DNA of 64,000 nt from Bradyrhizobium sp. 186 (lineage in GTDB: Bacteria; Pseudomonadota; Alphaproteobacteria; Rhizobiales; Xanthobacteraceae): NCBI RefSeq assembly GCF_023101685.1, contig NZ_CP082164.1, positions 8,866,001-8,930,000 of the forward strand, read 5' to 3'. The notes below the pieces were generated by a model. That model was not told the DNA's origin, searched no databases, and saw only the letters and a list, made by a program, of their open reading frames with translations. The position numbers and the translations under genes are program-made. Shown piece after piece: positions 17,413 through 50,964 of the stretch (position 1 is its first letter; every line of letters begins with the position of its first letter).

Positions 17413-17640
17413 ATGAACGCACGGTCAAAGAAGCAACCGTCCAAGGCCATCATTACGACCGACACGATCAGCTCGAAGCACACCTTGCCGACTTCATCAA
17501 CGCCAACAACTACACTCGGCGGCTGAAGACACTGAAGGTGTCTTACACTTTACGACTACATCTGCAATTGCTGGACTTCCCAGCAAAAACGATTCAAACT
17601 TAACCCGCTCCAGCAAATGCCAGGACTAAACACCCAGCTT
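17413..17640 (+). pseudogene. IS481-family transposase remnant (C-terminal end)
   Basis: Translating in shifted frames gives TVKEATVQGHHYDRHDQLEA then HLADFINANNYTRRLKTLK, and after a frameshift YDYICNCWTSQQKRFKLNPL and QQMPGLN. This is the typical C-terminus of IS481/IS3-like integrase-core transposases. Only about 75 codons survive, with at least one frameshift. Confidence 0.65.
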
Positions 17641-20495: not shown

Positions 20496-20624
20496 AGCAA
20501 CGCTCGTGCCAGCCGCGTTCGAGCGCTTTAAACCTCTGATTCGTTTTGAGAATGGCTCGTACCTCGTAAACAACGACCTCCGTTTTGAACCGAACAGAAA
20601 TGGTACGCTGTCAGAGATCGGACA
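20496..20624 (-). promoter_or_regulatory. NifA UAS plus sigma-54 promoter (acyl-CoA dehydrogenase operon)
   Basis: On the minus strand, TGGCACGAGCGTTGCT (20511 to 20496) matches the -24/-12 consensus TGGCACG-N4-TTGCT exactly. About 105 bp upstream, TGTCAGAGATCGGACA (20609-20624) is a perfect TGT-N10-ACA NifA upstream activator sequence. Orientation points to the acyl-CoA dehydrogenase pair. Confidence 0.8.
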
Positions 20625-21146
20625 ATCATCGAGAGTGGACCGTTGTTTCGATTGCCGCACAGCTGGCGGATCCAAATTTGCTAGCCTTCATTATCTCTCA
20701 GCTCGATGCGAATGGATGTGGACTAACGTTCGCCTGCCGTTCGAGCCCTGTGGTCATGAGAACGGACGGAGCAGAAGCCTCAGGTTTGCCGAAATGCTGG
20801 CGGACGCGCAGTTGAGGCGTTTTCGGCACGACGGCCCTGCGAGGACAGTCCAGAACGGCTTCCGACGCGCGCAGCTTGACGCTGCCATAGCCGACCTGTC
20901 AGCAGGTTCGACGAGCAGTCTGCCGCAATAGTTTGTCCTAAGCAGACCACCGCCATCATCATCCAGCCCAACGGTTCTTCGATCCGTTTGCTTATCAATG
21001 CTGATCCAACACCGGGCATGACCGTGAACGTGAGCAAGGACGGCGGAAGCATCGCTCGCCGTCTGCCCGAAACGTCAGATGTGTGGCAGGGATCGCGAGA
21101 CTCGAGCCAATCAGCAATGCTGGGGTCGCGCGCAGCGGCTGATGCA
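20625..21146. other. Intergenic, no gene recognised
   Basis: About 520 bp between the UAS and the enolase-superfamily gene end. Short open frames occur on both strands, but none resembles a known protein. Confidence 0.35.
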
Positions 21147-22280
21147 TCACCGCCTAGCAAATCGGGCCAGCGCCTTCTGATCGATCTCGATGCCCAATCC
21201 CGACCCGTTAGGCACGGGGACGATGCCGCGAGTGTGCTCGATGGGCTCGGTGAAAATCGCCTGCCGGAGCGGGTTTTCGGTTCGGTCGAACTCCAGCAAG
21301 GGCGCCACGGATATGGGCGAGGACCGCGTGTGCGGCGGCAGAACGGCGAGCAAATGTAGCGAGGCGGCAATTGCAATCCCGGTGCCCCAAACATGCGGAT
21401 TGAAACGGACGCCGAACGCTTCTGCCATATCGGCGATCTTCTTGCATTCGGTCAAACCGCCGGCCGCGCAAATGTCCGGCTGCGCTATATCGAGCGCGCG
21501 CGAGACGAACACGTTACGGAACCCGAAGCGGGTGAACTCACATTCTCCGCCTGCGATCGGGATCGAAATTGCCCCTTTTACCGCGCGGTAGCCGGCTAGA
21601 TCCTCTGGCGGTACCGGCTCCTCAAACCAGCCGATATCGTGTTTCTCGATCATGCGCCCCAGACGGATCGCTGCGACGCTGTCATAGGCGTGGTTGGCAT
21701 CCACCATCAGCGACACAGTCGGCCCTACCGCCTCGCGCACGACGCGTGTCGCGGCCGCATCCTCCTCCACACCGAAGCCGACCTTGAGCTTCACCGCCGA
21801 GAATCCCTCCGCGACGTAGCGCGCTGCCTCCTCGGCTAGATACCGGCTCGGGTCTTCAGCTTTGCGTCGGTGGAGGCCAGTCGCGTAGGCGACGATGTGA
21901 CTCCGCTGCGCGCCGCCGAGCAGCTGATGCACGGGAACGCCGAAACACTTGCCCTTGACGTCCCAGAGCGCGATATCGATACCGCTCAACGCCTCTATCA
22001 CGACACCCTTCTGGCCGTGATCGCGCAGGCGCGCATAGATCATTTGCCAGAGATACTCTGTGCGCAGCGGATCCTCGCCAACTAGCCATGGCGCGACGCT
22101 CTCGACCACGGCGGCCGTCATCCCCGCCGGTCCGTAGCATTCGCCCCAGCCAACAAGACCCTGGTCGGTCTCGATTTCGACCAGCATCGCTGTACGCGTA
22201 TCGTACCAGCCACGCGCGGAGGCAAGAGGCTCCGACAGCGCGGCTTGAAGGATATGAGTGCGAACGCTCGTAATCTTCAT
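21147..22280 (-). CDS. Mandelate racemase/muconate lactonizing-type enzyme (enolase superfamily)
   Basis: 377 aa. Capping domain followed by a TIM barrel with the superfamily catalytic residues: KxK at 164-166 (AVKLKVGFG), metal ligands Asp194 (MVDANHAYD), Glu220 (WFEEPVPPED) and Glu246 (AGGECEFTRFG), and a general-base His296 in NPHVWGTG. The KxK plus His pair places it in the mandelate racemase subgroup, which includes acid-sugar dehydratases and racemases. The substrate cannot be read from sequence. A decayed copy of the NifA/sigma-54 promoter lies just upstream. Confidence 0.87.
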   Translation of the reverse strand: MKITSVRTHILQAALSEPLASARGWYDTRTAMLVEIETDQGLVGWGECYGPAGMTAAVVESVAPWLVGEDPLRTEYLWQMIYARLRDHGQKGVVIEALSGIDIALWDVKGKCFGVPVHQLLGGAQRSHIVAYATGLHRRKAEDPSRYLAEEAARYVAEGFSAVKLKVGFGVEEDAAATRVVREAVGPTVSLMVDANHAYDSVAAIRLGRMIEKHDIGWFEEPVPPEDLAGYRAVKGAISIPIAGGECEFTRFGFRNVFVSRALDIAQPDICAAGGLTECKKIADMAEAFGVRFNPHVWGTGIAIAASLHLLAVLPPHTRSSPISVAPLLEFDRTENPLRQAIFTEPIEHTRGIVPVPNGSGLGIEIDQKALARFARR

Positions 22281-22339
22281 CGGCTTTGCCTTGTTCCAGT
22301 CCTGCTGCGCCCCTCACTCAGAACAGTCGCTTCTAAATG

Positions 22340-22459
22340 GGTACCGGCCGTGCTGCGGCGTTCAAACGCATTAAGCTTTTGCTTTGACAATATTCGCACA
22401 TAGGAAACGATGATCGATGCATCGAAGGCCGGATCTTTTAAGCTGTCAGAAACCGGACA
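22340..22459 (-). promoter_or_regulatory. NifA UAS with degenerate sigma-54 promoter (enolase-superfamily gene)
   Basis: A perfect UAS, TGTCAGAAACCGGACA (22444-22459), nearly identical to those at 20.6 and 30.4 kb. At the expected distance the minus strand reads CAGCACGGCCGGTACC (22355 to 22340). This aligns with TGGCACGGCCGTTGCT but has lost the -24 GG and the -12 GC, so it looks like a mutated promoter. Confidence 0.55.
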
Positions 22460-23481
22460 AAATACCGGCCGTTCATGCATGAAGAGCGCCGGTATTCACC
22501 ATGGTGGCCAATGGCCGTCGTCCAGGCAGCGGCAGGGGAGCAGCGAAGCACTGCCTCTCGCTGTGCATCACCGGACACCCGCAAGTCCTAGATGCCTGAG
22601 TTGGAATCCCCGTTGAGCCGCGCGGTGCTCGTGGACACAATCATCGCCGCGGTAGTTAGTACCGGACGCCTTGAGAGCCTCAGCCCACATCTCCGGCTTC
22701 ATTGATGCGCATATCCGTATTGCGCAAGGACCGGTCCAGCTGCCATGGATCCTACAACGCGAAATACGAAGCCATGAAAAAAAGAGCGGTCGAATGCTAT
22801 CCTGCCATCATTTTGGGGTTTCATCTTTGAAGATGCTGTTCGCAGCCAAACCATCCCCATGGAAGGCTACTTCAAAGGTCATCATTTTCGCGCTTGGCGC
22901 CATATAAAGTCGTGAAGATGTGCCTTCTGGAGCGGGTCAGCGCACCTCTGCAAGATGATCTGTAGAGTTGGCGCGACAAAGCTCATACCCTCGAACAACT
23001 CGTAAAACGCGACCTCGTTGTTTTTGTCGAAACCACCAAACTCTATCTCGTGATTTTGTTGGGGAGCGATCAAGCTTTAAAGTTGGAGACGTGGGCGCCT
23101 TTGCTGATCTAGTCAGCGCGATCACGATAGACTTAAGGAAATCGGATCCTGTCTTTCCCCTTGCGGCGGCGGCATGATCATATACTTGCAGCAATGGGAC
23201 GTGCAGCGGATCAACTAGGATACTCATGTCTGTACTCCGTCCAGCTGTGACCTGCGAATAGTATTGCTGTACACCGTCAACAAGAATCGGGACACTACCT
23301 ACTCTGATAAGGAGTACATCTGATAGAAGGGCTATTACTATTTCGACGCGAACCGCGGCGCACGAGCTTCAGCCGAGGTTCAACGGACCAACAACGCCCC
23401 TTGGCCGACTTTATTGACCTTGATGCCAAGAACTGGTCACTTAGAACTTTCCTAACATCGAGCTCGTTTCAACGATTTCCA
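22460..23481. other. Gene-poor stretch with possible remnants
   Basis: About 1 kb. Minus-strand frames at 22882-23227 (beginning MSILVDPLHVPLLQVYDHAA, continued by a frameshift into FDKNNEVAFYELFEGMSFVA) may be a decayed small gene of unknown kind. A plus-strand LADFI-like stretch near 23405 may be a trace of an IS481 transposase. Neither is firm. Confidence 0.3.
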
Positions 23482-24544
23482 TTACCTCGCACCCGCCTTC
23501 TGCGCATATTTCCATGACGCTTTCGCGAGCGGCACGGTGCGCTTGGCAGCTTCGATCGCCTTGGCATTGGCGGCTGTGCCGTCTCGGATGCGGGCTGCGA
23601 TACCTTGGGTCATGCCGACTAAGCGAAAGAGATTATACGAAAAATACCAGTTCAAATCCGGCAGCTCGCTGCCCGTGTAGTCGCAATAGATTTGCGCGGC
23701 CTCGTCCATGCTAGGAATATTGAGCGCCTTCAGGTCGGCGGTCGCAAGCCCCGGCCTAATCCATTGCATCAACAGATAGGTAAAATCGGACATGGGATCG
23801 CCGAGCGTCGACAATTCCCAGTCGAGCACGGCGATCACGCGCGGCTGCCTTGCATGGAAGATAATGTTTTCGAGCCGATAGTGCCATGCACGATGGAGAT
23901 ACGCTTCTGCTCGGGGACCGTGATCGGCAGCCACTCGATCAGCTTTTGAACCTCCGGAATATGTTGCGTCTCCGAAGCGCGGTACTGCTTGGTCCAGCGA
24001 TCGACTTGGCGCGCGAAATAATTGCCAGCCTTTCCGAAGTCGGCAAGGCCGATCCTATCGGGATCAAACATGTGCAGCTTTGCGAGAGTCTCGATCTTGC
24101 TGCGGAAGATCTTCGGTCGCATCCCGGACGGCTGGCTCGGCAAGGTCGGATCCCAATAGACCCGCCCGTCCTCCATCGACATGATGTAGAAGGCCGAGCC
24201 AATGACAGCATCGTCAGTGCAGAGCGCAAATGCATGCGCGACCGGAAAGCCCTGATGGCCGAGCGCAGAGATGACACGGAACTCGCGATCCACCGCATGC
24301 GCCGACGGCAGCAATTTGCCGAACGGCTTTCTGCGCATGACGTAAGAGCGGCCGGGGCTTTCGAGTTTGTAGGTCGGATTGGATTGGATTGGCCTCCCTT
24401 AAACTGTAAGACGGTCAAGGGGCCGGCGTAGCCCTCGACATGCTCGCGCATCCAACAATCGAGGCGGGTCTCGTCGATGCGATGTCGCTCTTCGACGGGT
24501 TTCGTGCCCGAAAACTCCTCGTCATTCCCGACGCCATCGGCCAA
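23482..24544 (-). pseudogene. APH/ACAD10-type phosphotransferase, two frameshifts
   Basis: Three consecutive frames reconstruct a phosphotransferase of the aminoglycoside-phosphotransferase/ACAD10 N-domain type: VLQFKGGQSNP, then MRRKPFGKLLPSAHAVDREF, then NIIFHARQPRVIAVLDWELS and TLGDPMSDFTYLLMQW. Two lesions can be placed. Near 24390 the unit CCAAT is present three times where two would keep the frame (a 5-bp duplication). Near 23880 the catalytic HGDYRLEN codons read CATGGCACTATCGG, one G short. Family members sit in acyl-CoA degradation clusters and are thought to phosphorylate hydroxyacyl-CoAs. Inactive as written unless the lesions are sequencing errors. Confidence 0.85.
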
Positions 24545-25009
24545 TGTGACGCTCCTCGCACTTCTTGAAGCGTCCCGCGTGGCCGCTTCTTATTAATCAC
24601 CCGAACAGTTGCATACTTCCGAGGTTCCAGTCTGACAACGGGGCGGCACTGCTTTTCATCGGCTCATCCGTCAGACGCATGGTACGCGTCGAGGCTTAGT
24701 CGCGGCGGATAAAGCACACCTCTTGGACGCGCGGGCGCAAGCTCTGCGTCCCTCCGGTCGCTGATTCACAGGCTGGTTTGTCTTCAGACGCCAATTCAGC
24801 AGTAGTCCCTCGTTGTCGAACCTCTTGTGCGGACCTCAAGCCGCTGGGCTCGAGGAGAATTGAATGTTTGCGGCGGTGCGAACGGGCCGGAGCTAGCAGA
24901 CTTTTTTCTCTGCGCACAATACGATCCTGTCTCGCGTTGAAGGGGTGCGACCTTGCGCAATATTCCATTTTGTTGAACGACCAATAGTCGGACGGGGGGA
25001 ACGGAACAT
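24545..25009. other. Intergenic, nothing recognised
   Basis: About 465 bp. I found no UAS/sigma-54 pair and no credible gene. Confidence 0.3.
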
Positions 25010-25310
25010 CTCTCATTACCGACGGGAGCAGCCTTCAGATGATCTCCGCGTGATCACTGGCATCGTTCATCTTTTGAAACGTCGCTGCCGCCTGGCGCGC
25101 GCTACGGATACGCAAATTATCGACGCCACGCACGTCAAATGGCACCGCTTGCCAGCGAGCGGAACGATTGGGAGCGCAACCAGGTTATTGGCCGCTTGCG
25201 CGCAGGGACAGCAAGAAGATCCACGCAGTCGCAGATGCTGATGGGCCCGATCGCAATCCTGCTGACGTGGATGAGGCGCATGACTGCCGGTCGCTGAACG
25301 CTTTTGTTCA
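25010..25310 (+). pseudogene. IS5-family transposase remnant
   Basis: Plus-strand frames give DDLRVITGIVHLLKRRCR, then after a deletion TQIIDATHVKWHRLPASGT, then in shifted frames NQVIGRL and KKIHAVADADGPDRNPADVD. These match the order of N-terminal, first-Asp (IDSTHVK) and central blocks of IS5-family transposases, with an internal deletion and frameshifts. Confidence 0.65.
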
Positions 25311-26180
25311 CTTGGAAACCGAACGCCGTTCGCGCACCGAGCCCTCCTGAGAGACGGACGCTACCAGCGTGCCGTCACGCGTGAAGATCAAGCCGCGCGC
25401 AAGACCGCGTCCGCCTTGCGCGCTCGGCGACTCTTTCGCGTAAAGTAGCCACTCGTCGGCGCGAAACGGGCGATGAAACCATATTGCGTGATCGAGGCTC
25501 GCCGAGATCATGTGCCCGTCGAACAGAGTGCGGCCATAGCGCACCATTACCGCATCGAGCAGCGACAAATCTGAGGCATAGGCCAGCGCGCACATATGCA
25601 GCGCAGGATCATCGCGCAGCTTTGCTGCGGCTTTGATCCAAATATGAAAGCGGCCGTCGTCGATCTTCTGACCGACATAACGGCCAATCTCGACCGGACG
25701 CAATTCAATCGGTCGATCGAAGTCATAATAGCGCCGGATGAATTCCGGCATGTCAGGAAACATCGGCCGCTTGGATAGTTCCTCGGCGGTAAGCCCTTCT
25801 GGCGGCGGAACATCGGGCATGTCGTTTTGGTGGTCGAAGGCGCCTTGCTCGCCTGCATGAAAGGACACCATGATGGAAGAGATTGCCTTACCCGCCTGGA
25901 TCGCGGTGACGTTCCGTGTCGAATAGCTCTTACCATCGCGCAGCCGTTGGACCTGGTAGATGATCGGAACCTGCGGGTCACCGGCCTGAATAAAATAGCC
26001 ATGCAGCGAATGCGGCAGCCTGTCTTCGACGGTGCGACATGCCGCGACCATCGCTTGCCCTATCACCTGCCCGCCGAACACCCGCTGCGAGCGAGTGTTC
26101 GAATGTTTGCCGCGAAACAGGTTCACCTCGATCGGTTCAAGGTCGAAGATGGCGGATAGATCGATTGAGGTTTTTGACAT
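25308..26180 (-). CDS. Acyl-CoA thioesterase II (TesB-like), copy 1
   Basis: 290 aa from the chosen start MSKTSIDLSAIFDLEPIEVN. Double hot-dog TesB family: RVFGGQVIGQAMVAACRTV and LHGYFIQAGDPQVPIIYQV in the first half, ASLDHAIWFHRPFRADEWLL and GLARGLIFTRDGTLVASVSQEG in the second. It hydrolyses acyl-CoA to free acid and CoA. Longer starts exist in frame, but the alignment with the tandem copy and the family length favour this one. A perfect sigma-54 promoter and a TGT-N10-ACA site lie 250-350 bp upstream. Confidence 0.9.
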   Translation of the reverse strand: MSKTSIDLSAIFDLEPIEVNLFRGKHSNTRSQRVFGGQVIGQAMVAACRTVEDRLPHSLHGYFIQAGDPQVPIIYQVQRLRDGKSYSTRNVTAIQAGKAISSIMVSFHAGEQGAFDHQNDMPDVPPPEGLTAEELSKRPMFPDMPEFIRRYYDFDRPIELRPVEIGRYVGQKIDDGRFHIWIKAAAKLRDDPALHMCALAYASDLSLLDAVMVRYGRTLFDGHMISASLDHAIWFHRPFRADEWLLYAKESPSAQGGRGLARGLIFTRDGTLVASVSQEGSVRERRSVSK

Positions 26181-26433
26181 TGACGCACTTTCGTTCTTCT
26201 TCGGCATCATTCCCCGGCACGGCGGCCCAGTGACGAAGCCGAGCTCTCGAGATCTGGCATTCTTTCGCGCCACCCAGAGGGGTTCTTGTTTTTCGTCCAT
26301 CTTTTCGCAGCTAAGGACCCCCAACTGCGACTATGCTGAGTCTATTGACATTGATTTGGACAGATCGAGAAGTCCTAGTTGGACTCCTGCGACCGGGACT
26401 ACCGCGTCGACCATTTCCAATGATGCTCCCCCC

Positions 26434-26534
26434 AGCAATCACCGTGCCACGAGGGTATACTTGAACAGATGCGAAATCGATGTGCTCATCCCGCGCCGGC
26501 AATAACACTTGCGCTTACTGTCGGACTGCCAACA
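26434..26534 (-). promoter_or_regulatory. NifA UAS plus sigma-54 promoter (thioesterase copy 1)
   Basis: Minus-strand TGGCACGGTGATTGCT (26449 to 26434) is a perfect -24/-12 match. TGTCGGACTGCCAACA (26519-26534) is a TGT-N10-ACA site about 79 bp further upstream. Confidence 0.72.
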
Positions 26535-26662
26535 TAGACGTCAACCGGACACGGCCCGAACACGACAACGCACATGAAAGAGACATGAACGCATCTCGTG
26601 CCGGAGGATCGACGGCGCTGGGATCTTCGAAATTATCATCACGTCTATACTGACGTGAAGGC

Positions 26663-27511
26663 TCAGCGTCGCTCGCGAACCGAGCCTTCCTGGGCGACAG
26701 ACGCGACCAGCGTGCCGTCAGGCTTGAAGATTAAGCCGCGCACGAGACCGCGTCCGTCTTGCGCGCTCGGCGACTCTTTGGCGTAAAGTAGCCACTCGTC
26801 GGCCCGAAGCGGGCGGTGGAACCACATTGCGTGGTCGAGACTTGCAATCATCATCCGCTTGTCGAACAGTGGGCGCTCGTAGCGCGCCGTTACCGCATCG
26901 AGCAGCGAGTAATCGGAGGCATAGGCCAGCGCACACATATGCAGCGCTGGATCGTCGCGCAACCTCGCTGCGGCCTTGATCCAGATATGAACGCGACCGT
27001 CATCAATTTTCTGACCGACATAACGGCCGATCTCGACCGGGCGCAACTCTATCGCGTAATAGCGGCGGATGAACTCCGTCGTTTCGCAATACATCGGCTG
27101 CTTAGGCAGTTTCCCCGCCATGAGCTTTTCCGGCAGCGGCACTCGGGGCATCTTGTCCTGGTGGTGAAAGGCGCTCTCCTCCCCGGCATGGAACGATACC
27201 ACGATCGAGAAGATTGCGTTGCCATGCTGGATTGCGGTGACGCGGCGCGTCGAATAGCTCTTGCCCTCACGCAACCGTTCGACCTGGTAAATGATCGGCA
27301 CCTGGGGGTCGCCGGGCCGGATGAAATAGCCGTGCAGCGAGTTCGGTAGCCGACCCTCGACCGTGCGGCATGCCCCAATCATCGCCTGCCCGATCACCTG
27401 GCCGCCAAACACGCGTTGCGCGTTGGTGTTCGGACTCTTGCCACGAAATAGGTTCGTTTCGATCGGTTCCACGTCGAAGATAGCGAGCAGGTCGATCAGG
27501 CTTTCGGACAT
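26663..27511 (-). CDS. Acyl-CoA thioesterase II (TesB-like), copy 2
   Basis: 282 aa from MSESLIDLLAIFDVEPIETN. Tandem paralogue of the neighbouring TesB gene, sharing RVFGGQVIGQAMIGACRTVE, LHGYFIRPGDPQVPIIYQVE, GRYVGQKIDDGRVHIWIKAA and FHRPLRADEWLLYAKESPSA. A much longer in-frame reading (to 28138) adds about 200 residues with no family similarity and is rejected. Upstream sequence is also homologous between the copies and carries its own sigma-54 promoter, so the gene was duplicated together with its control region. Confidence 0.9.
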   Translation of the reverse strand: MSESLIDLLAIFDVEPIETNLFRGKSPNTNAQRVFGGQVIGQAMIGACRTVEGRLPNSLHGYFIRPGDPQVPIIYQVERLREGKSYSTRRVTAIQHGNAIFSIVVSFHAGEESAFHHQDKMPRVPLPEKLMAGKLPKQPMYCETTEFIRRYYAIELRPVEIGRYVGQKIDDGRVHIWIKAAARLRDDPALHMCALAYASDYSLLDAVTARYERPLFDKRMMIASLDHAMWFHRPLRADEWLLYAKESPSAQDGRGLVRGLIFKPDGTLVASVAQEGSVRERR

Positions 27512-27738
27512 TGATGTGCTTTCGGTTTTCTTTGGCATCATTCCCGGGCATGGCACACAGCCGTGAACCAAAAAATTTCGAGATTTCAGGGCGTTCTTTC
27601 GAACCGCACAATGCAAACGCAAATTTGCGGGACGGCACGCGACAGTGCAACTGTCTATGGTATTGAGTTGGATAGATCGAGACCTTCTCATGAACTCCGG
27701 GCTGTCGGCATTTCGCAACGATGCTTTACGCTCGCTAC

Positions 27739-27845
27739 AGCAATCGGCGTGCCATAAAACGCTGTGCATGCCAGAGGAGATGCAAATCCATCTACTTTGT
27801 GCCGCGCCGACGAAATACTTACACCCTAGCGTCGCGCTCCGAACA
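27739..27845 (-). promoter_or_regulatory. Sigma-54 promoter with near-consensus NifA UAS (thioesterase copy 2)
   Basis: Minus-strand TGGCACGCCGATTGCT (27754 to 27739) matches the -24/-12 consensus. CGTCGCGCTCCGAACA (27830-27845) sits at about the same place as the UAS of copy 1 but has CGT instead of TGT. Confidence 0.65.
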
Positions 27846-28672
27846 TAGATATGAAACCGGACACGGCTGAGCACGACAACGACGCGAAGGACACCCGTCG
27901 CCTCGCCGAACGTTTGGCGATGACGGTCCTTCGAAATTATCTCACAGGTGACGCTTCGTATTAGATTCGACGTCCCTTGCACTTTCGCAATTAGAACAAA
28001 GAAACGCGTCCGCGCTGTCATGCGCAGAAATAAGCCTACAGCGGCCTCTAATCTCGCAAGCCCTTCTGCCCCCTGCGTCTCCAAGGCAGTCCGGGAAAGG
28101 AGCTTCGAGGTCGATCGTTGCAATGGATCGCCTTCCATCCGGCTTCTCCGCTGGGCGAGCTGTTGCCCAGCTGACGAGCGCTATGGTCTACTCATCCTCC
28201 GCGCCAAAGGTGCGCGCGCTAGCTGGCGCCACCCGCGGTTTGCATCTGGCAACGGCTGCGCAGCGCGGCCAGCAAGGTCAGTGTTGCGACAACGCGCTCG
28301 GCGGAAGCTCCATCCTCGATGGCCGGCGCGGCTCTTCTCCTACGACGCTCACACCGCTAGCCCGCTCTGAAGCAGTACTGCAGTACACTCGCAGCACGCC
28401 CGCCGTAAAATATGAGTAGTAGATAGCCGCTCACATCTCACTTTCCGCGGCTTGGCGGACCACCAAGCGCGGCCGGTCGTTCAGGCGGATCACCAGGCGG
28501 CAGCAGAGGGAACGGCTCTTTTCAGATTTGCGCCTTCGCCTTGCGGGATCGTGATTGGGGCAAAGCAACGCTGGCACCAAGCGCCGCCTCGCCATACCGG
28601 CAGGCGTCGATTCCCGGGCGCTAAGGCCCGCACGGGCGTCGCCGATTCCGTTGGCATCTTCACCTAGACAGC
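27846..28672. other. Gene-poor stretch
   Basis: About 830 bp. Open frames on both strands between 28120 and 28660 have no recognisable domain. The minus strand near 28565-28580 reads TGGTGCCAGCGTTGCT, a weak sigma-54-like match without an upstream site. Confidence 0.3.
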
Positions 28673-29533
28673 TCAGCCCAGCAGCGTCTGCCCATTTCTG
28701 GCGACGGTAACTTGGCGCTCCCGAACATGAGCTTCGAACGAAATCGAATCGCCGTCCTTCCATAGATTCACCGTAATGATCTCACCCGGAAACACCGGGG
28801 CAGAAAAGCGGACGCGATGACGATGGAAGGCAGAGGGATCGTAGTCAGCATACGTCTGCAACACGGCTCTGCAGGTCAGTCCATAGGTGCACATACCGTG
28901 GAGAATGGGCTTGGGAAAACCGGCCTTACGCGCGAATTCCGGGTCGCTGTGCAAGGGATTTCGATCACCCGATAGACGATAGAGCAGTGCTTGGTCGGGC
29001 CGGATCGGGATATCGACTGATCTGTCCGGCGCTCGCCGAGGTACTTGGTGCGGCTCGGGCATTCCCTCTGATGGTCCACCGAAGCCACCGTCGCCCCTGG
29101 CAAAAATCGAAGAAGCGATCGTGACGATCCTGTCACCCTCGCCATCTTTGACGACGACTTCGTTCTGAATGATCGCGCCTTTCTCCTCGCCCTTGTCGTA
29201 GACGCCGCGCACGCGCGCATCCGCCGTAACGCTGGCCGCGACAGGCATCGGCTTGTGAAATGTGATGTCGCGTTCGCCATCAACGACCATGACGCGGTCG
29301 ATGTCGATGAATCCGGGTCGAGCCCCCCAGACGCAGACCGACGCAAAGGTGGGCACCACCTTCAGCGGCTTCGATATTGCAAATGCCTCGTTGACAAACT
29401 GCAGCTCCTTTAGGCTCAGAGGATCGGAGCCCATGCCTATGCCAAGCGCATAAAGCATCACCTCGCGATCGCTCCACGAATAGGGAGCGGCTTCGGTCTT
29501 GAGATCGAGTATGGCGGGATAATCGATCGGCAT
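28673..29533 (-). CDS. MaoC-family enoyl-CoA hydratase 2 (double hot-dog)
   Basis: 286 aa. An N-terminal hot-dog domain (YALGIGMGSDPLSLKELQFV) and a C-terminal catalytic domain with the hydratase-2 motif YRLSGDRNPLHSDPEFARKA followed by GFPKPILHGMCTYG; the Asp/His of that motif are the catalytic pair. It hydrates trans-2-enoyl-CoA to (R)-3-hydroxyacyl-CoA. This would act directly on the product of the acyl-CoA dehydrogenases encoded nearby. It lies downstream of the NifA-type promoter at 30.3 kb, with a fragmentary redoxin start between. Confidence 0.9.
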   Translation of the reverse strand: MPIDYPAILDLKTEAAPYSWSDREVMLYALGIGMGSDPLSLKELQFVNEAFAISKPLKVVPTFASVCVWGARPGFIDIDRVMVVDGERDITFHKPMPVAASVTADARVRGVYDKGEEKGAIIQNEVVVKDGEGDRIVTIASSIFARGDGGFGGPSEGMPEPHQVPRRAPDRSVDIPIRPDQALLYRLSGDRNPLHSDPEFARKAGFPKPILHGMCTYGLTCRAVLQTYADYDPSAFHRHRVRFSAPVFPGEIITVNLWKDGDSISFEAHVRERQVTVARNGQTLLG

Positions 29534-30094
29534 CGGGCCGCTCCCTCGTTGTCGTTACGCTTTGACGTCAGGCCATCTTATAGAGCGGCAGTGGAGGTCC
29601 ACGTTCGATCACCATTTGTGTACATGCGAGCGGGCCGTTGATGGCCATGGCCCAAGGTTTGGCGAGGTTTATGTCGCAACGGCACCGAGAAGTGGCGGCT
29701 CTGCTCGAACAGAACCTTGTTATCGCGACCTCGCCCCTTCTCAACACGCGCACATAAGTGCGGCTCATGCGCTCGGGCGTCGCAAGATCGGCGCTGGCTG
29801 ACAGCGCTTTTTGCATGCGGTGATGGCGACGCCTCTGACGGCGGAAGTTGAGCCGGACCCCAATTCGAGGCTTGGCTGCTCGCTGGCTCTCCACGGCATA
29901 GGTATCGACATAATCGCGCGAAGAGTTGGCGCCGCCGCGGATCGCGATGCTCATGCTGGCCGCTCATCATCTGGACTTCGGCGGGATCCACCGCATCGAG
30001 GCCGAAGGCGCAGAACAGACTGATCTGCACCTCAGGCATGGCTTCATCTAGTCCCACTTTCAGCGCTACGAAGCGGCGTTGCCGTTCCACGTTA
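29534..30094. other. Region between hydratase gene and redoxin fragment
   Basis: About 560 bp. A minus-strand frame continues from the redoxin fragment (AMPEVQISLFCAFGLDAVDP and on) but has no recognised family. Likely decayed sequence acting as a leader. Confidence 0.3.
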
Positions 30095-30188
30095 TACACT
30101 TTCCAGGCTGGAACTTCGCCACGGGCTGGCCTCTTAGCCGACTCTCCCCTTTAATGGAATGAGCCAGCGATTCCATGCGCAGCACCAT
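30095..30188 (-). pseudogene. Truncated redoxin start, copy of the 5' end of the 50.7-kb gene
   Basis: The minus strand reads MVLRMESLAHSIKGESRLRG then QPVAKFQPGK, homologous to MVLRIEPPAPPIKVGSWLRG of the redoxin-HAD-UbiA fusion. It has the same GGAG ribosome binding site and the same upstream promoter. After about 30 codons the frame shifts and homology ends before the active-site cysteine. Confidence 0.7.
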
Positions 30189-30333
30189 GTTGCACTCCGA
30201 AGCTATTGCCAAAGCTGCGCGGCTTTGTGCGTGAGCTTTTTTGTTCAGGACCGGCGACACACAGGTTGAAGGGAACAGCATCCATCGTCTTCCGTGCGAG
30301 ATTGGCGCCCCAACCGTGTTGCTGCATCTCAAT

Positions 30334-30459
30334 AGCAACGGCCATGCCAGCGTCTCACCGCTATCTAAGCGTCTGATCACGCATTCGAAACTCCGACAAC
30401 ATCCAAGTCCCCCAGTGTTCTGAACCTAACGGGGGCTTGTGCCTGTCAGAAATTGGACA
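30334..30459 (-). promoter_or_regulatory. NifA UAS plus sigma-54 promoter (redoxin fragment/hydratase)
   Basis: Minus-strand TGGCATGGCCGTTGCT (30349 to 30334) is a sigma-54 core with one substitution. TGTCAGAAATTGGACA (30444-30459) is a perfect TGT-N10-ACA site about 104 bp upstream. Sequence, spacing and downstream leader match the 50.8-kb promoter. Confidence 0.8.
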
Positions 30460-31441
30460 AGAACCGAGCGCTCGGCGCCGCCAGGACGCGGCTTAAAGGC
30501 TCAGCGAAATGGATTTGACCTTCAATTTTCCGCCGCTCTCCCGGCGCAACTTTTCCAATCCGTGCTAGGCCACTTTGAGCGCAGCGTCGCAGCCTTGGCC
30601 TTCGTACGGCGATATATACTGACGTTTCCTACCTGGCGGCACCAGGCGCGAATCGCACCGCCCGCCGATCGCACCCATGGTCCTGAAAGCTGTGAAGGCG
30701 TTCTTTCCAGTTGGTGGTCTAAATTGGAGTGATTTTCCCTCAAGCTGTTAGCATGCGCATGCAGCTGATGGACCTTGATTGACAAATCGGACAACCTCAT
30801 CGCAGCCGGGAAATGTCGGCACCCGGATGAGGCAAACCGAACGTAGCGTAGACGCGGCAAACGGAGGCGAATGACCAACGCGGATAATTGCAGACACAGT
30901 CCACGGGAAGTTGCACCACTCTGCGCGCCCTCTCCATTAAGTAACTGAGCGGACAAACATGTTTGCCAGGTAACCAAAGCGCATGGACCCAGACGGAGGC
31001 ACGGAACGGGATGAAGTTATTGGACAAAGTCCCCTCGCTCCGTACGTTCTTATGATAATCGAGCCGGATCAGGTGGTGCCAACTCCACGAGCAGTTCGTT
31101 GAACAGCTCGCCGAACAGGTCGCGCGGATCAGAGGGCGGATGGCAATAGCCTGCAGCTTCTGCACGGCTCGGTGACGCCGCTAGGATCGTCCCGTTTGTC
31201 CGAGAGGATGATGATCCATCTCGCTGAGACGAATGTTCATGCTAGGCGAGCGACCCTTGTCGCAGGCGTTTGCGTGGAAGCACGAAGAACGTCGTTCGGA
31301 ACACCCATCCGCATAGTTCCTCGGGGCACACGGCCTGCCAGCTCCTGATAATCGTACTCAAGTCTGACGCACCATATAGGCGTGACCAAAAGGCGTCCGA
31401 TTGTCGGGTTTCGATGCTTCGCATGGGTCTGGTGTGACCGG
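30460..31441. other. Gene-poor stretch, about 1 kb
   Basis: No recognisable gene. A 122-codon minus-strand frame at 30797-31165 is unlike any family I know and is probably chance or decay. Confidence 0.3.
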
Positions 31442-33252
31442 CTAGCTCGTCGCCGAGACCCTACCGCTGGCTTGCCGTTCGAACAGCCATTGATAGATGC
31501 CGCCGGCCCGAGTCAGGGAGGCGTGGGTGCCCTGCTCGACGATCTCACCGCGATCGAACACCAGAATGCGATCGAGGTCGCGCACCGCCGATAGCCGGTG
31601 CGCGATAACGATCGAAGTGCGTCCCTTCATCAACCGCTCCATCGCCTGCTGGATCAGCCCCTCCGATTCCGAATCGAGGCTCGACGTCGCCTCGTCCAGA
31701 ACCAACACCGGCGCGTCCGCGAGGAACGCCCGCGCCAGCGCGATCCGCTGCCGCTCACCGCCCGACAGCTTAACGCCGCGCTCGCCGACCAGCGTGCCAT
31801 AACCCTTCGGCAGCCGCAGGATGAAGTCATGCGCATTGGCGAGCCGCGCTGCCTGCTCGATCGCCGCCATGGTGGCGCCGGGCCGGCCGTAGGCGATGTT
31901 CTCAGCCAGGGAGCGGTGAAACAGGATCGGCTCCTGCTGCACGATCGCGATCTGGCTGCGCAGCGATTGCTGTGTCGCTTTGGCAATATCTTGGCCGTCG
32001 ATCAGGATCCTCCCGCCGGAGAGATCATACAGGCGCTGCACCAACTTGACGAACGTGGTCTTGCCGGAGCCGGAACGGCCGACCAGCCCAACGCGTTCGC
32101 CGGCGCGGATGTCGATCGACAAACCCTCGTAAAACGGCGCGCGGCCCCCCCCGTAGTGAAAGGTCACATCCTCGAATGTGATCCTTCCGCCCTGAATATC
32201 GATCGGTTTGGCGCCGGGTGCATCGATGATGCCGATCGGCTCGCCACTAATTGTAACAAGTTCCACCATGTCGTTCACCGAACGCTGCAAATTGTTGATG
32301 TGCATGCCGACCTCGCGCAAATAGGCGTGAATCAGATAATAGCTAGTCAGCACATAGGTGACGTCGCCTGCGGAGGCGTGCCCTGCTATCCACAGCAGGA
32401 TAGCGCGCCAATTACCGAACCACGAAAGCACAAGAGCATCACGTGCTGCAACACATTGGTGGCGTTGCCACGCAGCCACGTGCGCGATACCCGTGCCTGC
32501 CAGCGGTTGATGACACCGTTGAGCCGCGCATCCTCGCGCGCCTCCGCGCCAAATGATTTCACCACGGGGTTGCAGGTGAGCGCGTCCGCCAGCGTACCCC
32601 CGACCTTGGTATCCCAGGCATTGGCTATTCGTGCAGTTGGCACGATGTAGCCGATCGTCATCGCTATCGTGATCGCGACATAGATTACGGTGCCGACAAC
32701 GATCACGCTGCCCAGTGCGGGCCAGTGCAGGCCGAGCAGGATCATCGATCCCACGAGCACGGCGAGCGACGGCCACAATGCCATCAGTATGATGCTATTG
32801 AGCAGGTCGAGCGCCCACATGCCGCGCGTGATCTTGCGCACGGTCGAGCCGGCGAAGGAATTGGAGTGCCAATCGGTCGAGAAGCGCTGCACCCGCATGA
32901 AGGCTTCGCGCACCACATCCGAGATCGTGTTAAGCGTGAATAGCACAATCGCCTGCAGGCCAACAAACCGCAGGATGAGCGACATGAGACCCAGCGCGAC
33001 GATGCCGCCGAACGCAACGAGCGCCGCATGCCGTGCGGCCAAATCGGACGGACCCGACGTTAATGCATCGACCAGATGGCCCGAATAGACTGGCATGAAC
33101 AGGTCGGCGACCGATGCACCTAAGAAGCCGACGAAGACGATCGTGAGGCGGACAGGCTGCTTCAGCCACTGCTGGAACACGAAAAGGATCACTTCGCGGA
33201 TCGCGGCGGGTCGTTTGTCGTCGGAAACAATCATGGCGCAATCCGGCCGCAC
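31442..33252 (-). pseudogene. ABC exporter (fused membrane and ATPase domains), one frameshift
   Basis: The 5' part (33252 to about 32420) encodes a six-helix exporter membrane domain (VADLFMPVYSGHLVDALTSG, FSTDWHSNSFAGSTVRKITR). The 3' part, in another frame, carries the rest of it plus the nucleotide-binding domain: GLVGRSGSGKTTFVKLVQRL, LSGGERQRIALARAFLADAP, VLVLDEATSSLDSESEG and the H-loop IVIAHRLSAVRD. The frames join at about 32425, where a single missing base would restore LQHVMLL-VLSWFGNWRA. Otherwise full length (about 600 aa). A type IV-like ABC exporter half-transporter of unknown substrate, inactive as written. Confidence 0.85.
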
Positions 33253-33369
33253 TCACAGCGCGTGGCCACTCCATCTAAATTGACGCGCGGTGGCGCAAGG
33301 AACGACAGAGGAGTCATCGGAAAACAGTAGGTTGTTGGGTGCTTTGGGCGAGCGGGACGTTGGTCCGGA

Positions 33370-33840
33370 TCAACGCCGGCGGTCAACGGCACGGACGAAA
33401 ACCCAAAGAACAGCGGGCGTAGGCGCGCGATCGTTGAACAAGATATGACCACGAAAAGCCTCGCCCGTTGGAGTGACGAGGCGCAGCCTACGGATGTATT
33501 GGGTGCAATCTGCCAAATGGCAAGCCCGTGAGCGCATCCATCTCAATGCGCGTCGTCGAATGACGCCGCCACGGTGGCGGCCTCGTTTGTAGCCGATCTG
33601 GCCATCTTGCAAGAACACAGGGGCATCGGTGACGTTGCGGTAGATTGATGGACCGTAGTCACCGAAGGATTTCCGGCCACAGTCGCCGCCGACGAGCACG
33701 CCAATAGATCCTCCGGTCCACCTCCACAGTCCAGGCGGGATCTTCACCGCAGGCTCGAGATCCGCTGAATTGGCAGTACCGCTTGCAACAAGCGTAACCG
33801 TTGTGTCGTCACGCCAAAAACGCACTTCAGTTCGCATCAT
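33370..33840 (-). CDS. Hypothetical protein
   Basis: 156 aa, begins MMRTEVRFWRDDTTVTLVAS. No domain recognised; the second half is arginine-rich and may not be genuine. It lies between the sigma-54 promoter at 34.3 kb and the broken ABC exporter gene on the same strand, so it could belong to that transcription unit. Coding status uncertain. Confidence 0.3.
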   Translation of the reverse strand: MMRTEVRFWRDDTTVTLVASGTANSADLEPAVKIPPGLWRWTGGSIGVLVGGDCGRKSFGDYGPSIYRNVTDAPVFLQDGQIGYKRGRHRGGVIRRRALRWMRSRACHLADCTQYIRRLRLVTPTGEAFRGHILFNDRAPTPAVLWVFVRAVDRRR

Positions 33841-34307
33841 AAACTTTCACAAGGTGCATATTCCCGACTTGCACACACGTCCATCGATGGAACGAGTGCG
33901 ACATCCCTGCTCTAGGCGTCAGCTCACATAACCGACGCGCTGAAATGGCCTGACGCTGTTACGCCGTGTTCGCGCCCCTTTCTTGCGGCCGCAGGATTTG
34001 GGGCCGCGAAAGCCAATCGCCTGCTCTGGTTTTGTGCGCGACGTCGCGTTCGCAAACAGTTTGTTGTCGTGGACACAAGCCGCGCGCTTCCTTTCAGATA
34101 GAAGGCGCTGTGCACGCACCGGCTAATTCCGGCGGCGACAGATTTGCTCGGCCTAGCCATTGCCCCGTCTCTTGCTCCAGCACCATGCAACAGTGCGGCC
34201 GCACTTCTTTGTCGGTATGTCTCCGCTGCAGCACGAATGTGCTCACGACTCGAACACCGGGGAAACAGAGTATCGGTCGTCTGGCTCCTCTGTCGCTGCC
34301 TTTGAAC
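33841..34307. other. Leader region with possible third redoxin-start remnant
   Basis: Downstream of the 34.3-kb promoter the minus strand has an ATG reading MVLEQETGQWLGRANL near 34187, in a context (GCATGGTGCTG) like the redoxin starts at 30188 and 50688. Likely a decayed third copy. Nothing else recognised. Confidence 0.35.
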
Positions 34308-34437
34308 AGCAATAACCATGCCAGCACCTTGCAAACGTGTTAAGCTGTTGTTTGGGATTGGAAAAGCCGTACGTCGGCAGGCGACGGCTGGTTGTTTTGA
34401 GCGCGACGGCCGTCATACCGACGACAGAAACCGAACA
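34308..34437 (-). promoter_or_regulatory. Sigma-54 promoter with decayed NifA UAS
   Basis: Minus-strand TGGCATGGTTATTGCT (34323 to 34308) is a good -24/-12 core. At the same spacing as in the 30.3-kb copy, CGACAGAAACCGAACA (34422-34437) aligns with TGTCAGAAACCGGACA but has lost the TGT half. Confidence 0.55.
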
Positions 34438-34630
34438 GGATGGGCGGTCGTTTGCACCCGAAAGAACGCCTTGCTGCGTTTGTCAGCACGGCTGAGCTGA
34501 TCCTAGTGGCAGACCCAATCATCGTTGAAATTTCGCTCTGGCCCAATGCATGGCCAGAGCATCAAGCGCAGCTACGTTGGGATTACGCGTATTTCCTTTA
34601 TCGAGCAAGGCGCGCGTCCGATTCCACGAG

Positions 34631-34646
34631 TGGCACGTCGATTGCT
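34631..34646 (+). promoter_or_regulatory. Sigma-54 promoter (plus strand, ahead of GlcD-like oxidase)
   Basis: TGGCACGTCGATTGCT is a perfect -24/-12 match on the plus strand, about 210 bp before the FAD oxidase start. No intact TGT-N10-ACA site was found upstream; TGTCAGCACGGCTGAG at 34481 shares only the first half-site. Confidence 0.55.
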
Positions 34647-34858
34647 AATGCGACAGACCCCGCAGCCCGAGAGCAGTGGGATTCTTCCGGCGTTATCGAT
34701 GAAGATTGCTTAGATCGGTACAATGAATGCGCGAAGAAGATTTTTGGTTCTCGACAAACATCAACAAAGCTGCTGAGAACCTCGCCCCGCAGGCCAATGA
34801 GAACGCTGCACCGCTCTAACAGGGGACCATGCCATCAAGATTAGCTCGAGTGAGGGAC

Positions 34859-36253
34859 ATGACCGACAGCTTCATCGACCGACTCTGCAAGGCGCTCCGC
34901 AAGGGTTCGGTGCTGACTGGCACGGACATTGACTCTCGCTATTACCACGATTTGGCCGGTAAACCGGTCGCGCAGCCGCGAGCGGTCGTCCGTCCAAGGA
35001 CGACGGAAGATGTCTCGGCCTTGCTTCGGCTCTGTCACGGCGAAAAAGTGCCACTGACGACGCAGGGCGGCATGACCGGGTTGGTGCGCGGCGCTCTGCC
35101 GAATCCGAATGAAATTGTGCTGTCGATGGAACTTATGAATGCGGTCGAGGAGGTGGACATCTCGTCAGGCGCAGCCGTGGCGCAGGCCGGCACGCCGCTG
35201 CAAAAGATTCAGGAACGGGTCGGGCAGGAAGGGTACATGTTCCCGCTCGATCTCGCCGCGCGCGGTAGCTGTACTATCGGCGGCAACATCTCGACAAATG
35301 CCGGCGGCAATCGCGTGATTCGGTACGGCATGACGCGCGACTTGATCCTCGGCCTCGAAGTCGTTACCGCCGATGGCACGGTGCTACAGGGCTTACGCAA
35401 ATACATCAAGAACAATACTGGCATCGATCTTAAGCAGCTTTTCATCGGCAGCGAGGGGGTTCTCGGCGTGGTGACGCGAGCCGCCTTGCGCATCTTTCCC
35501 GCCCCTAGGGAGCGGCAAGTGGCGCTTTGCGCCCTGCCCTCTTTTACACGAGTCATCTCGATCTTAGGAATGGCGCGAAAACATCTGGGCGGAGAACTGT
35601 CAGCATTTGAGGTGATGTGGAACGAGTACTACCGCCTCGCGCTCGAGCGCGTGAACGGCATGGTTCGGCCGCTGCCGGTCGATTATCCCTTTTATGTCTT
35701 GATCGAGGCCTCTGGTGACGATGCCCATCGTGTCCACGCCGATCTCGAAAAGCTGCTCGATACGGCAATGCGCGCGAACATGATCCTTGACGCGACGCTC
35801 TCGACGTCGAATGCATCTGCAGCAGCGATATGGCGTATCCGCGATTGCAGCTTAGAACTTGCCCGGACGTTTCCTTATGCTGCACGTATCGCCCTCGACG
35901 TCAGTATCGCCATCAACCGGATGGATCAGTATGTGAAGACAATTGTCGCGCGTATTAAGGAGATCGACCCCGGCGCGTTCACGATCGTCTTCGGCCACGC
36001 CGGCGATGGTAACCTGCATATCGAGCTACATCACGAGCACACGCCCGACAGGCGGCAGGAATTGGAGAGGCTTGCTTATCAGATCACCAGTGAATTCGGC
36101 GGATCAATCTCAGCGGAACACGGCATCGGCATAGTTAAGCGGCCCTATCTGCAGATGAGTAGGACATGGGAGGAAATCGAAACCATGCGTACGCTCAAGC
36201 GAGTGCTCGATCCGAACAATATCCTGAACCCGGGACGAATTTTCATGATGTGA
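34859..36253 (+). CDS. FAD-linked oxidase, GlcD/D-lactate dehydrogenase type
   Basis: 464 aa from MTDSFIDRLCKAL (an upstream in-frame ATG at 34829 is less likely). The PCMH-type FAD domain shows VPLTTQGGMTGLVRGALPNP and GSCTIGGNISTNAGGNRVIR. The C-terminal cap domain shows VFGHAGDGNLHIELHHEH and ISAEHGIGIVKRPYLQ, the metal/substrate motif of this family. Members oxidise D-2-hydroxy acids (glycolate, D-lactate, D-2-hydroxyglutarate) and pass electrons to the respiratory chain. It stands alone on the plus strand, with a perfect sigma-54 promoter upstream, suggesting co-regulation with the acyl-CoA genes. Confidence 0.88.
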   Translation: MTDSFIDRLCKALRKGSVLTGTDIDSRYYHDLAGKPVAQPRAVVRPRTTEDVSALLRLCHGEKVPLTTQGGMTGLVRGALPNPNEIVLSMELMNAVEEVDISSGAAVAQAGTPLQKIQERVGQEGYMFPLDLAARGSCTIGGNISTNAGGNRVIRYGMTRDLILGLEVVTADGTVLQGLRKYIKNNTGIDLKQLFIGSEGVLGVVTRAALRIFPAPRERQVALCALPSFTRVISILGMARKHLGGELSAFEVMWNEYYRLALERVNGMVRPLPVDYPFYVLIEASGDDAHRVHADLEKLLDTAMRANMILDATLSTSNASAAAIWRIRDCSLELARTFPYAARIALDVSIAINRMDQYVKTIVARIKEIDPGAFTIVFGHAGDGNLHIELHHEHTPDRRQELERLAYQITSEFGGSISAEHGIGIVKRPYLQMSRTWEEIETMRTLKRVLDPNNILNPGRIFMM

Positions 36254-50688: not shown

Positions 50689-50837
50689 GTTGCTCTCCAT
50701 TGCTATTAACAAACACTGCACGACGTTAGGCACGAGCTCGCTTTTCTCAGGGGACACACTGTTACTAGGAAAGGAGAGCATCGCTCGTCTGCGCGCCTGC
50801 GTGCACTCAGCCTCACTCAGTGTTGCTGCATCTGAAT

Positions 50838-50964
50838 AGCAACGGCCGTGCCAGCGCCGTCAGCGCGTATTAAAGCACCTCGTACCCTTTAAAAACTTGC
50901 CCCTCCCCAAAACCGGCGGTGTCTTGAAGCAGACGGGCTTTGTGCCGGTGTGAGAGATTGAACA
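50838..50964 (-). promoter_or_regulatory. NifA UAS plus sigma-54 promoter (redoxin-HAD-UbiA gene)
   Basis: Minus-strand TGGCACGGCCGTTGCT (50853 to 50838) is a perfect -24/-12 element. TGTGAGAGATTGAACA (50949-50964) is a perfect TGT-N10-ACA site about 105 bp upstream. The predicted transcript start is about 140 bp before the chosen ATG. Confidence 0.82.

Follow-up and report, generated by a model that had tools for sequence, protein, structure and literature searches.

In Rhodopseudomonas palustris, the pimFABCDE operon holds pimF, pimA, and pimB together with pimCD, and the pairing of a PhaJ/MaoC hydratase with a TesB thioesterase is a known system for the release of (R)-3-hydroxy acids. Here, we describe a cluster of acyl-CoA genes in Bradyrhizobium sp. 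186 that has features of both, located in a stretch of 64,000 nucleotides (contig NZ_CP082164.1, positions 8,866,001 to 8,930,000), the full length of which is referred to as the window. PimC and PimD of this cluster pass the curated models for pimeloyl-CoA dehydrogenase, but the genes lie behind separate sigma-54 promoters and are accompanied by TesB, MaoC, and a flavoenzyme instead; pimF, pimA, and an intact pimB were not recognized beside the island pimCD, and the neighboring open reading frames (ORFs) that were scanned belong to other families. Likewise, the hydratase 2 and TesB families are neighbors with a common type of control as in the PhaJ/MaoC system, yet they are joined here to a PimCD-type dehydrogenase and NifA-type promoters. 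With the rhizobial NifA/sigma-54 regulon the cluster shares -24/-12 promoters, at half of its sites an upstream TGT-N10-ACA sequence (upstream activator sequence [UAS]), and a location on a symbiosis island, as well as the placement of nif-fragment promoters before non-nif genes that is described in passages on Mesorhizobium loti (PMC3538637). We propose that the region is a symbiosis-island acyl-CoA module, each unit of which carries its own NifA/sigma-54-type promoter, and that it is switched on along with nitrogen fixation in the low-oxygen nodule. We assign this reading a probability of roughly 0.6.

The promoter pattern used was TGGCAYG-N4-TTGCT, with TTGCW allowed in the genome-wide count. 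An earlier inspection of the letters (here called the sequence-only reading) had placed six such promoters between 20.5 and 34.6 kb, and all six proved exact at the places named: 20496, 26434, 27739, 30334, and 34308 on the minus strand and 34631 on the plus strand. A seventh exact match in the window, at 50838 (minus strand), belongs with a Redoxin-HAD-UbiA fusion gene (48766-50853) that has an exact sigma-54 site and a UAS. When up to one mismatch was allowed, the window held 9 matches compared to 1.63 expected, and 0 of 100 shuffles reached 9. The whole genome (10.77 Mb) contained 35 exact matches compared to 2 for the reversed-pattern control, and 6 of the 35 fall within an interval of 14,151 bp (Poisson P of 1.3e-11 for a fixed window and about 1e-8 after scan correction). 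The equal density elsewhere in the genome that the sequence-only reading had offered as grounds for its rejection was thus not found. The spacing was tested on the cluster regions of five genomes, using TTGC without the last base: a spacer of N4 gave 24 matches, while N0 to N3 and N5 to N8 gave 0. Genome density, shuffles, and the spacer control together rule out a chance origin of the six sites. Elsewhere in the genome, identical sigma-54-like sites without an exact UAS were seen at L016 and L017 (G000:C1:2941178 and 3081566) in an apparent repeated element.

Exact UAS were present upstream of three of the six sites (20496, 26434, and 30334), starting 113, 85, and 110 bp before the -24 element, and site 50838 also has an exact UAS. 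The earlier statement that most of the promoters carry TGT-N10-ACA therefore held for three of them and not for most. The UAS of promoter 27739 (TesB2) is degenerate, as is the one lying between the divergent pair 34308/34631, which is nearer the consensus in relatives (both read from the alignment by eye). Requiring a UAS 75 to 105 bases above the promoter left 8 places genome-wide and 0 in the reversed control; these 8 include 20496 and 30334 inside the interval and 50838 outside it, and the UAS of 26434 lies slightly closer. Over 30 conserved sites, TGT-Nn-ACA occurred at 15 with n = 10, compared to 0 to 2 of 30 with n = 5 to 9 or 11 to 15. A common dyad spanning the -12 element and the start (GTTGC...GCAAC) was discarded as a further element, since its presence at 10 of 36 sites with a UAS and 3 of 23 without one gave no clear tie to the UAS-bearing sites. 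One place in the genome exceeded the cutoff of the NifA model (C1:8504521-8506188, at 8.505 Mb), and nodC was located at 8.516 and 8.530 Mb. The cluster lies on the same chromosome at 8.884 to 8.902 Mb, and the distance from nifA and nodC is 0.35 to 0.38 Mb. It seems very unlikely that the sigma-54 promoters, while real, respond to some enhancer-binding protein instead of NifA. Other activators of the class do exist, since the genome has 17 matches to the NifA model with only one over the cutoff, and the exact NifA UAS is missing at half of the conserved sites, but the loop length of the UAS is specific for 10, and a nifH-like gene (recognized by eye) in the same genome has the same promoter type and a UAS.

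Four close relatives that carry the greater part of the cluster (genomes G262, G205, G045, and G195) were found with protein probes and not with the motif (PimC, followed by MR, the flavoenzyme, and TesB1 in 265 genomes of the genus; MR denotes a mandelate racemase-like dehydratase of the enolase superfamily). In the PimC search of the species-genome collection, the best 80 loci were kept, and the exact motif was present at 3 of the 80, which were precisely the copies that also have the neighboring genes; the non-module PimC copies (L039 to L115) had the motif in 0 of 77. Named records with the island pimC are those of B. yuanmingense ALSPC2050, B. glycinis CNPSo 4016, and Bradyrhizobium sp. 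CCBAU 51627. The six homologous promoter positions in the four relatives (24 cells) comprised 17 exact sites, 3 with one mismatch, and 4 absent. All six were exact in G195, and five were exact and one had one mismatch in G262; G205 and G045 each showed three exact sites, one with one mismatch, and two absent, and the TesB1 and MaoC units are not intact there. Substitutions and indels have accumulated in the flanks of the promoter 16-mers, but the 16-mers themselves are retained. The enzymes are under purifying selection, as the ratio of nonsynonymous to synonymous rates (dN/dS) between this genome and its relatives was 0.14 to 0.30 for PimC, PimD, MR, TesB1, TesB2, MaoC, and the flavoenzyme.

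These values bear on the possibility that the cluster is a decaying, nonfunctional relic, which we regard as hardly probable. The kinase and exporter genes are split over frames in this genome, the thiolase is a remnant, and the MR promoter is degenerate here; the frames of PimC, PimD, TesB1, TesB2, MaoC, and the flavoenzyme, however, are open with dN/dS values of 0.14 to 0.27, and their promoters are kept. The broken kinase pieces gave 0.13 to 0.20 and the ATPase half of the ATP-binding cassette (ABC) exporter 0.12 to 0.16, and the breaks in these two genes may be recent or sequencing errors.

A restriction of the module to five genomes was ruled out by the MaoC search of the 265 genomes, in which island-type MaoC (81 to 89% identity, E of 1e-140 or better) was found in 31. 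NodC exceeded its cutoff in 30 of these 31 genomes compared to 105 of the 234 others (Fisher P of 6e-9, with the 31 rows read by eye). Regions from all 31 genomes, comprising the window, those of G262 and G195, and 30 further regions, were scored over 1.3 kb of upstream sequence for sites with at most one mismatch and with GG and GC kept; loci were dropped when identity was below 75% (MaoC), 70% (PimC), 60% (TesB), or 70% (MR), when the start was not near the first residue, or when less than 700 bp of upstream sequence was available. Sites preceded TesB at 21 of 26 loci, MaoC at 16 of 31 (a 32nd locus had too little upstream sequence), PimC at 7 of 7, and MR at 0 of 7, and the reversed motif scored 0/26, 0/31, 1/7, and 1/7, respectively. 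An exact UAS accompanied the site at 14 TesB, 11 MaoC, 5 PimC, and 0 MR loci. Among copies elsewhere, a site was found for 1 of 11 scored TesB loci (of 12; L170 to L181) and for 1 of 26 MR loci (L120 to L145), and these positive TesB and MR control loci (G147 and G166) are module copies themselves. Flavoenzyme loci were compared for 10 of 26 matching genomes; those with at least 82% identity had a site in 7 of 7 cases (own locus included, one with one mismatch) and those below 80% in 0 of 3. Beyond the flavoenzyme in G262, a DnaJ-domain gene (L151:12774-13394) lies just 3' of an exact sigma-54 site with a UAS.

The arrangement varies between genomes. In G015 and G056, a single contig carries pimC, two tesB genes, MR, and maoC in a different order, with sites before pimC and tesB and none within 1.3 kb of maoC; in G043, the same genes are spread over two contigs, and in G082, sites precede pimC and maoC but not tesB. 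A second locus in G205 and G045 contains an intact MaoC and a further TesB; this TesB has a one-mismatch site with a UAS, and this MaoC has none. Beyond the genus, 397 sampled genomes of the order yielded two MaoC matches outside Bradyrhizobium, at 65 and 67% identity (among matches at E of 1e-130 or better), and five further genomes of the same genus at 66 to 67%, which we took as the non-island level. Among the records listed for the plasmid collection no close copy was seen (best identities: PimC, 66%; MaoC, 49%; TesB2, 55%; flavoenzyme, 48%), and in the plasmid DNA search the match of the 20 listed of 69 records was confined to about 850 bp of the ABC region.

Because of the site density, the spacer and loop controls, the conservation, the nearby nifA and nodC, and the 77 pimC loci without sites, NifA/sigma-54-type control is strongly supported by the sequence, and the presence of a putative NifA/sigma-54-type acyl-CoA module on symbiosis islands is well supported by sequence. 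Activation by NifA in bacteroids is what we infer from this control type. The sequence-only reading had proposed a NifA-controlled module for acyl-CoA oxidation and acyl release: its control part stands on the strength of the sequence and the enzyme families fit, whereas one coherent pathway would be a step further. The features of the cluster are compiled in Table 1.

Table 1. Genes, promoters, and activator sites of the acyl-CoA cluster (positions in the window)
Feature	Position	Strand	Basis and state
PimD, small subunit of PimCD-type acyl-CoA dehydrogenase	17626..18801	-	NCBIfam TIGR03203, 733.6 bits (cutoff 652.7)
PimC, large subunit	18869..20053	-	NCBIfam TIGR03204, 791.7 bits (cutoff 623.85)
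Sigma-54 -24/-12 promoter of pimCD	20496..20511	-	exact; also exact in G262, G205, G045, G195
NifA-type UAS of pimCD	20609..20624	-	TGTCCGATCTCTGACA
MR, enolase-superfamily (mandelate racemase-like) dehydratase	21147..22280	-	Pfam MR_MLE_N, MR_MLE_C; frame open here and in G262, G205, G045, G166, broken in G195
Degenerate -24/-12 of MR	22340..22355	-	one-mismatch site aligns in G166; position counted by eye
UAS of MR	22444..22459	-	same 16 bases in G166
ACAD11-kinase-like phosphotransferase (APH) gene	23482..24544	-	split between frames in this genome; single open frame in G262, G195
TesB1 acyl-CoA thioesterase	25308..26189	-	TIGR00189, 307.3 bits (cutoff 292.85); PDB 1c8u, 4r4u relatives
Sigma-54 promoter of TesB1	26434..26449	-	exact; 16-mer identical in G262, G195
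UAS of TesB1	26519..26534	-	exact
TesB2 acyl-CoA thioesterase	26663..27511	-	Pfam thioesterase matches; TIGR00189, 285.7 bits, below 292.85
Sigma-54 promoter of TesB2	27739..27754	-	exact; exact in G262, G195, G166; one mismatch in G205, G045
MaoC / hydratase 2 (MFE-2 type)	28673..29533	-	Pfam MaoC_dehydratas (PF01575), MFE-2_hydrat-2_N (PF22622) over cutoff; PDB 3khp, 7mku, 1s9c
Probable thiolase remnant, between promoter and MaoC	29578..30099	-	weak PRK08242 match (E 3e-5); no Pfam match; no match above 45% in relatives compared
Sigma-54 promoter of MaoC	30334..30349	-	exact; identical in G262, G195
UAS of MaoC	30444..30459	-	TGTCCAATTTCTGACA; same in G262
Fused ABC exporter gene	31442..33252	-	frameshifted in this genome; single frame of 650 aa in G262; G205, G045 with both halves in the same frame; stop in G195
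Sigma-54 promoter facing ABC exporter	34308..34323	-	exact; exact in all four relatives; exact UAS in G262, G195
Degenerate UAS between divergent promoters 34308/34631	34422..34437	.	two mismatches here; position counted by eye
Sigma-54 promoter of flavoenzyme	34631..34646	+	exact
Flavoenzyme, FAD-linked D-2-hydroxyacid (D-2-hydroxyglutarate-like) dehydrogenase	34856..36253	+	Pfam FAD_binding_4, FAD-oxidase_C

The gene list of the sequence-only reading included both TesB thioesterases (78% identical to each other) and the hydratase 2; the acyl-CoA dehydrogenases on it form, as two subunits, a single PimCD-type enzyme, and the minus-strand promoter at 34308 points across about 1 kb at the ABC exporter gene. 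The protein named as a GlcD-like oxidase reached 286.6 bits with the GlcD model TIGR00387, far below the cutoff of 567.9, and stands nearer to D-2-hydroxyglutarate dehydrogenase; its nearest solved structures are 3pm9 (a putative oxidoreductase) and 6lpn (D-2-hydroxyglutarate dehydrogenase). An ORF at 33370-33840 gained no support as a module gene (dN/dS of 0.64 to 0.86, no Pfam match). The best structure matches of PimC and PimD were PDB 4x28 chain A and 6wy8 chain A, both entries with two different acyl-CoA dehydrogenase chains. E243 of PimC aligns with E247 of 4x28 chain A, which we take to be the catalytic Glu, and is kept in 8 of 8 island copies and 78 of 78 other copies. The substrate of the two structurally characterized enzymes, presumably a steroid side chain, need not apply here.

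From the promoter type, NifA and the sigma-54 RNA polymerase would switch the genes on in the nodule. Judged by their families, PimCD would then oxidize a bulky or omega-functionalized (dicarboxylyl-like) acyl-CoA to the enoyl-CoA, MaoC would hydrate this to the (R)-3-hydroxyacyl-CoA, and the two TesB enzymes would release the free acid and CoA; the flavoenzyme would oxidize a D-2-hydroxy acid. PimCD- and flavoenzyme-type enzymes are expected to pass electrons to the electron-transferring flavoprotein (ETF). Because two thioesterases are present and an intact thiolase was not recognized in the cluster, release is favored over thiolysis, and a single pathway ending in acyl release is what the families would suggest.

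A possible alternative, to which we give a minor share, is ordinary catabolism, in which the genes enhance the full beta-oxidation by which bacteroids draw energy and reductant from dicarboxylic or fatty acids. The chromosome would provide the ligase, thiolase, and 3-hydroxyacyl-CoA dehydrogenase, and TesB would only keep CoA from being trapped. Chromosomal pimC (82.7% identical) and pimD (77.6%) genes do lie behind ORFs of 698 and 627 aa at about 0.83 to 0.84 Mb, the MaoC unit includes the probable thiolase remnant, and in G207 an exact sigma-54 site with a UAS precedes, by about 1 kb, an enoyl-CoA hydratase gene (L212:2740-3633) near TesB and MaoC. A standard beta-oxidation spiral, however, needs neither two thioesterases nor an (R)-isomer hydratase, and an intact thiolase was not recognized in the cluster. 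We retained this alternative because chromosomal enzymes could supply thiolysis.

Carbon metabolism in bacteroids is generally portrayed as the oxidation of C4-dicarboxylates together with polyhydroxybutyrate, and FixAB, which is kin to ETF, is a NifA target. A speculative and rather improbable extension of the acyl-CoA module would be a branch of beta-oxidation confined to bacteroids and ending at the thioester. PimCD, hydratase 2, TesB, and the ABC exporter (intact in relatives) would make a free (R)-3-hydroxy or dicarboxylic acid from host or envelope acyl-CoA, which would be passed to the plant as a signal or carbon currency, and PimCD and the D-2-hydroxyacid dehydrogenase would feed electrons to FixAB, which NifA would induce simultaneously. 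The kinase gene of the cluster is ACAD11-kinase-like and lies among acyl-CoA genes, reminiscent of ACAD10/ACAD11, for which passages describe a 4-hydroxyacyl-CoA kinase plus dehydrogenase (PMC12440821, PMC11342911). We do not consider the kinase essential to the module, because it is split here and was not found in the clusters of G205 and G045.

With respect to origin, PimC of the five close genomes formed one clade (support 100/100) with a long stem (0.24), and the position of this clade within the other Bradyrhizobium PimC received moderate support. The island PimCD is most likely derived from Bradyrhizobium chromosomal pimCD. Since the more distant module PimC of G015, G043, G056, and G082 were left out of this tree, it does not establish a single origin of all module PimC. 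At L194 (G000:C1:8755000-8774000), pimC and pimD occur a third time (61% and 55%), accompanied by a 738-aa ORF and a gapped MaoC; the exact motif is missing there.

Among the leaders, that of the UbiA fusion at 50.8 kb shows a clear relationship to the one of the nifH-like gene (score of 28 compared to a shuffle mean of 7.4), and the MaoC leader resembles this nifH-like leader, with 6 of 2000 shuffles scoring as high here and 0 of 2000 in G074 (15 leaders tried, single-base shuffles); for the PimC, TesB1, TesB2, ABC, and flavoenzyme leaders, the likeness to the nifH-like leader was not above shuffles. We read this as duplicated genes having probably been recruited one promoter at a time, partly from copies of nif promoters. 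Capture could also have occurred without any shared pathway, with copies of nif-type promoters landing next to duplicated genes unrelated to one another; the acyl-CoA theme would then be whatever chanced to be recruited. This is unlikely, although the UbiA-fusion leader clearly and the MaoC leader in part would fit it, as would the separate promoter of each unit, the gene order that differs between genomes, and the occurrence in this genome of a promoter followed by a nifH-like fragment before another ORF (by eye); nif-fragment promoters of M. loti precede P450 and methyltransferase genes in passages of PMC3538637. The five leaders not resembling nifH speak against such capture, and in many genomes the same gene families reappear jointly with promoters of this kind. 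The enzymes, moreover, remain under purifying selection. Two near-identical sigma-54/UAS promoters were noted at L030 (G000:C1:8961685) and L028 (G000:C1:8635362), where a nifH-like N-terminal fragment and a P450-like ORF come downstream of the one and an FkbM-type-like ORF downstream of the other (by eye).

Several observations weigh against a NifA-controlled acyl-CoA module. An exact UAS is present at only three of the six sites here and at 15 of 30 over the conserved set, and no site was found within 1.3 kb at 15 of 31 MaoC loci and at 7 of 7 MR loci. The gene set is patchy. Neither TesB1 nor the kinase turned up in the clusters of G205 and G045, and the cluster MaoC is truncated in one of these two genomes and was undetected in the other; G195 has a broken MR, and in this genome the kinase and the exporter are broken. 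The N-terminal (membrane) half of the ABC exporter is less constrained (dN/dS of 0.34 to 0.41). An activating ligase, an intact thiolase, and a 3-hydroxyacyl-CoA dehydrogenase were not recognized among the cluster genes examined. Finally, in passages on nodules of a Paraburkholderia rpoN mutant, an acyl-CoA dehydrogenase and an enoyl-CoA hydratase were up, not down, although these are different genes (PMC5979394).

An accessory NifA regulon is of a known kind, while this membership and its breadth appear to be new within the literature searched. Passages of the regulon literature searched named, by term, no acyl-CoA or thioesterase targets of NifA (the 2007 Bradyrhizobium japonicum and 2010 Rhizobium etli regulon papers lie outside that scope), and the open-access passages held no description of the module; a mention in a classical Bradyrhizobium NifA regulon paper is possible. 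In passages of PMC8632152, bll2063 of Bradyrhizobium diazoefficiens is an acyl-CoA dehydrogenase gene among those differentially expressed by nodule stage, numbered near symbiosis-region genes, and may be a counterpart of the module genes. Passages of a phaR study of B. diazoefficiens mention acyl-CoA dehydrogenases, a valine-catabolism operon and acd, and a NifA link is not among them. For Clostridia and Bacilli, sigma-54 promoters have been predicted before acyl-CoA dehydrogenases and related beta-oxidation genes; these belong to another phylum, and the passages of that work make no link to NifA or symbiosis (PMC12316311).

The surroundings of the module contain mobile-element genes, namely, a resolvase/recombinase gene at 52821-54890 (Pfam) and transposase-like ORFs at 15776-17050, 36858-38093, and 38301-39169 (by eye). 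TauD-family dioxygenases were observed at 59933-60850, L205:8352-9392, and L211:10803-11798; the one at L205 adjoins the module and has a one-mismatch sigma-54 site with a UAS just upstream.

Taken together, the data raise the possibility that an additional series of acyl-CoA reactions, tied to nitrogen fixation, operates in some nodules. The same arrangement in related nodule bacteria points to an unstudied metabolic task in nodules, and the cluster would offer a case of metabolic genes joining a regulon promoter by promoter.

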